From Bugula neritina (Eukaryota; Bryozoa; Gymnolaemata; Cheilostomatida; Bugulidae): 64,000 bases of DNA. The stretch spans positions 18,966,698 to 19,030,697 of the forward strand of contig OZ037765.1 of the NCBI GenBank assembly GCA_964035545.1. Reading direction: 5' to 3'. This document shows, piece after piece, positions 46,961-48,117 of this stretch. The notes under the pieces are model-generated. The model did no database searches. It was not told the origin of the DNA and was given only the letters and a program-made list of their open reading frames with translations. Positions within the stretch are counted from its first letter, which is position 1. Every line of letters starts with the position of its first letter. The position numbers were made by a program, and so were the translations under genes.

Positions 46961-47421
46961 CTATTTGTTATGAAGCAGTATATTGCACTTGAACTGTTGT
47001 TAATAAATAATATTGAATCTACATTCAAGAATTTGGTGAACAAATTGAAGTAAGTTAAAAATAAAAAAGAAATATTATTCATAATCGCCTAGTAAAAGTA
47101 TCGTTTGCTTTCCTTACAGCACAACTTTAAAGATACTATTTAGTGAGTGCATATTTGTATGTGTATGCTTGCATACAGCTATAATACATATATGCAATAC
47201 TGTTGTTAATTTATACTGCAAATAAATTACACTGTGGGTAGTTATTGAGAGTTTAATGCTCAAACATTTAACTCTTTGTAAGAAAGAAAGAATGAGGATA
47301 AATTAATAATTGTAAAAAGCACATTGTTGGCTTGCAATGCAAAAAGAGCCCATGCAAGTCTGACTTCTTACAGAAGTGGTAAAAGTTACATATAAGTATA
47401 AATCATATATATATACCTCAA

Positions 47422-47468
47422 TCTGTGGACAGCGGCTGTTTCGGGGTTTGTCCCCTCATCAGCACAGA
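47422..47468 (-). ncRNA. Hammerhead ribozyme 1 (complete core)
   Basis: Minus strand: stem I TCTGTG/CACAGA (6 pairs), CTGATGA, stem II GGGG/CCCC with ACAAA loop, GAAA, stem III CAG/CTG with CCG loop, then TC. Cleavage is predicted between 47428 and 47427. Every invariant base of a type I hammerhead is present. Confidence 0.9.
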
Positions 47469-47693
47469 ACAGAGTACCATGGCCCACACCTTCGCAATAG
47501 TAGAAACTTATGTTTCTACTAAAGCATATTTAAAAGGTGTGTAAACTCAAGCCAGAGAGCTCAAGTGACTCTAGGGGTCACCTAGGAGTCACGAGCCTTG
47601 CAAAATGCTAGCAGCTTGAGTTTGTGACCATGGTGAGAGAGCTCAATCACTAAATGTCATTGCTGAGCATTAAGTGAGAGCGTAATACCTCAA

Positions 47694-47740
47694 TCTGTGG
47701 ACAGCGGCTGTTTCGGGATTTGTCCCCTCATCTGCACAGA
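47694..47740 (-). ncRNA. Hammerhead ribozyme 2 (core mutated)
   Basis: Same fold, but the core reads CAGATGA instead of CTGATGA and stem II has one G-T pair. The core change should abolish cleavage. Confidence 0.85.
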
Positions 47741-47968
47741 ACAGAGTACCATGGCCCACACCTTCGCAATAGTAAAACTTATAGTTTTACGTACTAAAGC
47801 ATATTTAAAAGGTGTGTAAACTCAAGCCAGAGTGCTCAAGTGACTCTAGGGGTCACCTAGGAGTCACGAGCATTGCAAAATGCTAGCAGCTTGAGTTTGT
47901 GACCATGGTGAGAGTGCTCAATCATTTAATGCCATTGCTGAGCATTAAATGAGAGCGTAATATCTCAA

Positions 47969-48015
47969 TCTGTGGACAGCGGCTGTTTCGGGATTTGTCC
48001 CCTCATCAGCACAGA
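47969..48015 (-). ncRNA. Hammerhead ribozyme 3 (complete core)
   Basis: CTGATGA and GAAA intact, stem I TCTGTG/CACAGA, stem II GGGG/TCCC with one G-T pair, stem III CAG/CTG. Cleavage predicted between 47975 and 47974. Confidence 0.88.
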
Positions 48016-48017
48016 AC

Positions 48018-48117
48018 ATATATATATATATATATATATATATATATATATATATATATATATATATATATATATATATATATATATATATATATATATA
48101 TATATATATATATATAT
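48018..48117. repeat. (TA)n microsatellite adjoining the retrozyme array
   Basis: About 100 bp of TA beginning at the outer edge of ribozyme 3. Confidence 0.95.

Follow-up and report, generated by a model that had tools for sequence, protein, structure and literature searches.

How a short ribozyme-bearing element without a reverse transcriptase (RT) of its own comes to be inserted repeatedly at one kind of target is the question raised by a locus of the bryozoan Bugula neritina. It lies within a stretch of 64,000 nucleotides (assembly GCA_964035545.1, contig OZ037765.1, positions 18,966,698 to 19,030,697), hereafter the window, and consists of a tandem array of hammerhead-bearing units with the layout of a retrozyme, placed inside an (AT)n microsatellite. 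The junctions of this family across the genome make it likely, in our view, that the retrozyme is copied by the RT of a Penelope-like element (PLE), with cut (AT)n as the primer and an RNA circle as the probable template. The PLE partner, the existence of two retrozyme subfamilies and a second copy in the window are points that the initial annotation of this DNA did not contain.

The array and its immediate surroundings comprise the following features.

47417 to 48018, minus strand: retrozyme array within (AT)n, made up of two units preceded on the 5′ side by about 55 nt
47689 to 47963, minus strand: 5′-proximal unit, A subfamily, 275 bp
47417 to 47688, minus strand: 3′-proximal unit, G subfamily, 272 bp
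47969 to 48015, minus strand: hammerhead 1, type I, core intact, predicted cleavage at 47975/47974, read by eye
47694 to 47740, minus strand: hammerhead 2, U4 replaced by A (CAGATGA), read by eye, with a match in the core search at C1:19014391
47422 to 47468, minus strand: hammerhead 3, type I, core intact, predicted cleavage at 47428/47427, read by eye
48018 to 48127, no strand assigned: long (AT)n target on the 5′ side of the array
47405 to 47416, no strand assigned: short AT run on the 3′ side, the minus-strand junction reading GAG and then GTATATATATAT

A repeat search delimited the tandem repeat at 47413-48018 (period 275, 2.2 copies, 95% matches). The three minus-strand type I hammerheads of the initial annotation are present, the outer two with intact core and stems I-III, and their predicted cleavage sites are indeed 547 nt apart. 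Read by eye, hammerhead 1 (48015-47969) has CTGATGA, a stem II of GGGG/TCCC with loop ACAAA, GAAA, a stem III of ACAG/CTGT with a 3-nt loop, C17 and a stem I of TCTGTG/CACAGA; hammerhead 3 matches it except that stem II is GGGG/CCCC, and hammerhead 2 is probably inactive, given its change of U4 to A. The proposed covariance check for the type I hammerhead came back empty: at gathering cut-offs Rfam gave 0 matches in the whole window, hence no hammerhead, and at E ≤ 10 it gave 14 matches in 47300-48200, none of them a hammerhead. Single-strand folding of the three motifs did not prefer the hammerhead fold (z -0.39, 0.07 and -0.87); constrained to it, they have energies of -10.1, -10.1 and -13.2 kcal/mol, whereas their minimum-energy folds reach -13.0, -12.0 and -15.6. 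With Rfam silent and folding not selective, the hammerhead call rests on core and stem complementarity. The two monomers had been described as near-identical, which they are not: of the 271 sites compared, 13 distinguish them, and the array is a mosaic of one A-type unit joined to one G-type unit.

Across the assembly searched (215,847,546 bases, 295 contigs), a 41-base hammerhead core gave 454 matches at up to 3 mismatches and its reversed control 0, which puts the motif beyond chance. At up to 2 mismatches there are 446 copies of the 3′ junction into (AT)n and 120 of the junction between units, and a mid-unit 37-mer has 312 matches at up to 3 mismatches; mid-unit matches are thus fewer than 3′ ends, as 5′ truncation would give. 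The genome-wide monomer search that had been called for thereby uncovers a family dispersed through 216 Mb, whose units of 271-275 bp are both tandem and dispersed, many copies being single or truncated. Between the two units compared, subfamilies A (271) and G (272) are separated by 12 substitutions and one insertion, and the sole difference within the hammerhead is a stem II change from G-U to G-C. Folded as a circle, the unit reaches -99.6 (A) and -103.5 (G) kcal/mol (z -10.2 and -7.0, 60 shuffles each). Covariation is thin: eight pairs of the A fold are changed, of which four are kept in G (two by two-sided change) and four broken, in a count made on a pairwise alignment where one hairpin with an insertion on both arms is partly scored as broken. 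A generic hammerhead pattern with another stem II base returned 6 matches against 3 in the control, two of the six looking like mutated family members; two of the hits, the hammerhead-like motifs at C2:5124953 and C4:14420510 with another stem II, resemble each other and possibly belong to a second family.

The retrozyme-like layout proposed for the array is borne out: the units are of a fitting size, each has one type I hammerhead and is strongly self-paired when folded, and copies are found both in tandem and dispersed. No long terminal repeat (LTR) layout was seen in the aligned loci, and insertion inside (AT)n masks any target site duplication, which in metazoan retrozymes exceeds 4 bp when there is one. 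The element is a new member of the animal-type (non-LTR) retrozymes, a placement made by setting its features against those of described families. In the parts of Cervera and de la Pena 2020 (PMC7229834) available to us, metazoan non-LTR retrozymes likewise carry a type I hammerhead in short repeated units, occur as dispersed dimers to multimers, have a highly self-paired unit and share their genome with PLEs; their repeat size of about 150-450 bp encompasses the 271-275 bp found here. We found no mention of a common 3′ junction, an (AT)n target or joints of retrozyme with PLE in the portion of that paper covered, most of the Results and the Discussion.

The insertion scars of this family were read chiefly from 60 loci found through the mid-unit 37-mer with no demand on the 3′ end, which gave 63 aligned pieces; these loci are the exact matches listed and not already sampled, minus C5:8208304, among the 312 matches. 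A first set of 50 loci had been picked by whole-array, hammerhead-core or internal-junction probes and is biased for that reason, and the totals of 105 and 116 pieces given here pool it with the 37-mer set. Of the 63 pieces, 57 end at unit coordinate 0-6, in (AT)n, and the pooled figure for this common 3′ end is 105 of 116. It lies 11-15 nt beyond the predicted cleavage site, so that a start at this point on a cleaved linear monomer would yield only 11-15 nt. The array had been said to begin and end precisely at a hammerhead. What holds of this is a 3′ end fixed across most copies, yet fixed past the cleavage site, while the 5′ border is a variable stop with a slight excess near stem I of the hammerhead (16 of 105 5′ ends at unit 210-235; p 0.043, weak).

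These variable 5′ ends are joined to (AT)n by microhomology. An alternating AT flank of at least 8 stands at the 5′ border of 32 of 57 pieces, in which the overlap between flank and element is 2.19 nt against a simulated 0.74 ± 0.17, with 0 of 5000 simulations as high. The 5′ ends also gather where a full lap of the unit would be completed: 34 of 105 lie within -10 to +4 of this point against 5.8 expected (p 1.6e-17), 28 of them in copies about one unit long. They split into 26 at -2 to +4 and 8 at -8 to -5, and none of the 105 falls at -13 to -9, where run-off at the cleavage site (-11) would be found. Five copies ending at -2 to +4 (L030, L077, L092, L133 and L134) show by eye no AT run at the 5′ border, and AT microhomology alone therefore does not account for the lap-end stops. 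By length, 25 of the 105 copies measure 0.98-1.05 unit and 39 are below 0.98 unit. Three circularly permuted copies (L068, L049 and L064) have their 3′ ends elsewhere in the unit and run through cleavage and unit junctions.

Terminal letters and the likeness of units within arrays bear on how copying begins and continues. The 3′ terminus reads GAG in 84 of 100 cases, GAT in 12 and otherwise in 4, whereas internal junctions read GAG in 55 of 55 and GAT in none (terminal versus internal, Fisher p 0.004). Four arrays (L038, L045, L086 and L124) combine a terminal GAT with internal GAG, and an exact search for the 16-mer with GAT gave 31 matches genome-wide. Most simply, an (AT)n primer that annealed with one mismatch would have supplied the terminal GAT letters, the alternative being later mutation beside the microsatellite. 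Among 44 A-type units from 32 loci, the distance within arrays is 0.0124 (15 pairs) against 0.0249 between arrays, 0 of 2000 permutations being as low, and in L002 and L003 the three units of each array show no differences. Several laps of copying round a single circle would produce such likeness, but so would homogenisation or a linear multimer of uniform sequence.

An enzyme with the same target is encoded in the same genome. Of 100 candidates scored against a Penelope RT query, 67 matched (best E 5.8e-70). The PLE label rests on this query together with the domain layout; among the listed database matches, none bears a PLE name. A frame of 696 aa in one copy (L137) is matched by Pfam RVT_1 (E 2.9e-10) and is 45% identical over 585 columns to P0145, including the Pfam GIY-YIG region of the latter; GIY-YIG was not called by Pfam on the L137 frame itself. 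The PLE protein is taken to be an RT with a probable GIY-YIG endonuclease. A GIY-YIG search of the genome gave a single match, elsewhere than the PLE, and was misleading as a test for such elements, since the RT query later found the PLE. The two longer copies read (L137 and L138) both end in long (AT)n, and a genome-wide search at up to 3 mismatches gave 415 PLE 3′ ends and 192 matches to a longer-tailed form. Among the 68 exact matches listed, PLE 3′ ends with a neighbour within 3 kb face outward in 21 of 24 cases. The eight PLE pairs read are 5′-to-5′ joins with a gap or overlap of 0-7 nt, five of them (L141 and L143-L146) having been picked because they were listed as pairs; L138 is a single copy with no partner in the stretch read. 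A possible hammerhead-like motif, CTGAAGA..GAAATATC, was seen by eye in the PLE, and Rfam gave no hammerhead match on a PLE 3′ region.

Retrozyme and PLE are physically joined at C3:16580400-16581435. This mixed locus consists of (AT)n and a minus-strand PLE in two parts, internally deleted, followed after 6 nt by a plus-strand retrozyme and again (AT)n; its geometry is that of the PLE-PLE pairs, one half being retrozyme. PLE and retrozyme 3′ ends face each other across an AT tract at L111, L116, L133 and L143, and stand in line at L103 and L141. Of 100 retrozyme 3′ ends, 4 are no more than 1 kb away from a PLE 3′ end against 0.69 expected (P 0.0055), under a null that places each element in a random (AT)n tract, at a density of 7 such tracts in 64 kb. 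This count covers the exact matches listed, 100 retrozyme and 68 PLE, on C1, C2 and C3 up to 20.59 Mb; both elements also occur together at L103, L133 and L143, which fall outside it. The 3′ ends of four families of long interspersed nuclear elements (LINEs; two copies each) are (ACAA)n, AGGTAATCAGAG, (AAGT)n and GCTGACACA, none of them (AT)n, and the 3′ parts of these four had no match in the set of retrozyme loci at E ≤ 1e-5. The wider survey of RT families gave 150 scored matches of 2124 candidates, several families being abundant and having open frames. RT frames of near-identical score measure about 961, 928, 936 and 1105 aa (LINE type), and about 1558 aa in a group that may be of Gypsy type.

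A mechanism can be proposed from these observations. Retrozyme transcripts, here possibly the pre-mRNA of a carboxylesterase, would self-cleave at the hammerheads, and the cleaved RNAs would be closed into circles. The PLE protein would cut (AT)n microsatellites on both strands, a use of strands suggested by the outward-facing pairs, and a freed ...ATAT end could anneal to AUAU (A) or UAU (G), located 11-15 nt beyond the cleavage site on its 3′ side. From this internal start, target-primed reverse transcription by the PLE enzyme would travel round the circle, for as much as one lap or more, and stop at the lap end or elsewhere, whereupon the cDNA end would be joined to (AT)n by microhomology, or to a second cDNA begun from the other side of the break. 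Spread through circular RNA, which the initial annotation had put forward, is probable on the junction evidence. We also lean, by a modest degree, towards a fuller reading, in which the scars would be a genomic record of Penelope RT copying RNA circles lap by lap from both sides of an (AT)n break, the retrozyme would be a minimal parasite of the PLE, and PLE and retrozyme cDNAs of one event could be joined into one insertion.

The same PLE machinery could act on another template, an uncleaved or partly cleaved linear multimer or a read-through RNA, in which case the hammerhead would not be needed for insertion. Multi-unit loci and their 120 internal junctions agree with this, as do the 8 of 105 5′ ends that lie 3-6 nt from run-off on a 5′-cut linear dimer; however, 26 of 105 5′ ends at -2 to +4 of lap completion with none at -13 to -9, and units that are more alike within arrays than between them, speak against a linear template, which we think unlikely. 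The permuted copies L068, L049 and L064 fit a circle, yet also a multimer. Several abundant RT families with open frames would be available if a LINE or another RT, and not the PLE, mobilised the retrozyme, but the four LINE families examined have neither (AT)n ends nor matches in the retrozyme loci, whereas the PLE resembles the retrozyme in its target and in the geometry of its pairs and is joined to it in a mixed pair, which makes another enzyme quite improbable. Slightly more doubtful still is an inert hammerhead in an ordinary repeat of the short interspersed (SINE-like) kind: the silence of Rfam and the preference of free folding for other structures are what it would lead one to expect, but all core bases and three stems are kept, and what separates the A and G hammerheads is the stem II change from G-U to G-C. 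Spread as a satellite, by unequal exchange or reinsertion of circular DNA without an RNA step, would account for tandem units and for the 25 of 105 copies of 0.98-1.05 units, but hardly for dispersed loci with one 3′ end (446 junctions), variable 5′ ends and 39 of 105 copies below 0.98 unit, and is disfavoured as very improbable.

A number of observations weigh against PLE-driven copying of circles, the reading that we prefer. Cleavage, circles and use of the enzyme are inferred, while the target, the pair geometry and the mixed joint are seen in the sequence. Many of these junctions could also arise from an uncleaved linear multimer, and the eight copies at -8 to -5 stand 3-6 nt from the run-off end of a linear dimer cut on its 5′ side. 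The lap point is itself AT-rich, so microhomology may account for part of the lap-end stops, and a clean AT flank of 8 or more is missing from the 5′ border of 25 of 57 pieces. The remaining six 3′ ends lie away from the common point, at 116 (a piece truncated by the limit of the sequence taken), 131, 180, 180, 242 and 265, of which 131 (L103), the 180 in L102 and 242 (L108) also abut AT. The mosaic array of the window, if it came from one circle, needs template switching or later exchange, and in L047 and L060 many differences separate the units of one array. As regards the PLE, just one directly joined PLE-retrozyme pair was read, its PLE half internally deleted; one of the four co-located ends is a 23-nt retrozyme fragment (L141); at a distance of up to 300 bp co-occupancy is weak (3 of 100, P 0.033); and the density of (AT)n tracts in the null was taken from one 64 kb window. 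The LINE comparison covers four families. Retrozyme and PLE sequences have no appreciable likeness, the best exact match being 11 nt, which offers the PLE protein no evident common sequence by which to recognise the retrozyme RNA.

Further features of the window concern the host gene and related elements.

48340 to 48580, minus strand: carboxylesterase exon (HGG...GLLGF), donor near 48339, exon start approximate, by eye
46770 to 46964, minus strand: next carboxylesterase exon (TGNFGLWDQ...FGSSAGAGS), limits approximate
51771 to 51937, minus strand: second retrozyme copy, more diverged, 5′-truncated, G-type, upstream of the esterase exons
27890 to 27958, plus strand: degenerate PLE 3′ end, a 70-column match of 80% identity that runs into an AT tract at 27957-28200
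43595 to 44131, minus strand: 178-aa open frame with a DTG motif (LLDTGCTANLL), by eye resembling an LTR-retrotransposon protease

The array sits between two same-strand carboxylesterase exon frames, that is, in a sense-oriented intron with splice points placed by eye. Translated and joined, the exons are similar to esterases of solved structure, 9g73 foremost (E 1.2e-49), and their top protein match is from Bugula neritina, with 55% identity over 85% of the query, which by itself points to a bryozoan as the likely source. The placement in a sense-oriented host intron thus agrees with the initial annotation, and release of a 547-nt RNA from esterase pre-mRNA is possible as a prediction from the motifs, the second hammerhead being mutated. 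The second copy has the same 3′ region as the family, followed by ATATATATA and (CA)n, and a (TG)/(CA) repeat occupies 51346-51778.

Among known systems, plant LTR retrozymes (PMC4918200) are alike in having hammerheads that bound the units and a circular RNA cycle, and they differ in their type III hammerheads, LTRs, primer-binding site, polypurine tract and 4-bp target duplications; a Gypsy-family partner has been proposed for them, as described, like these features, in the available portions of PMC7229834 and PMC7761336. For the PLE, the anole element Poseidon (PMC11167929) and the Pen families of Adineta vaga (PMC3846280) are similar in an RT with a probable GIY-YIG-like C-terminus, an AT-rich target, two 3′-end classes, inverted copies and possibly a hammerhead-like motif near the RT start. 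In comparison with them, the retrozyme lacks an RT and would be a passenger, and the PLE described here is found at long (AT)n. In the anole, AT-rich DNA is cut on both strands by the PLE protein, which begins reverse transcription within its RNA, at two adjacent start sites and with an optional tail (PMC11167929), which the two PLE 3′-end classes of Bugula neritina recall. As to the enzyme that mobilises retrozymes, the wording in the available part of a 2024 paper is 'LINEs or Penelope-like retroelements' (PMC11722881), and in a literature search of titles and abstract openings that reached few subscription journals we found no report of PLE-retrozyme junction evidence.

Here, one genome gives a common target, a common pair geometry, a mixed joint and a precise predicted start site, and with this combination a single protein, RNA and DNA target would be enough to test the proposal. 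What is unusual about this retrozyme is that its likely partner and start site are readable from the genome.
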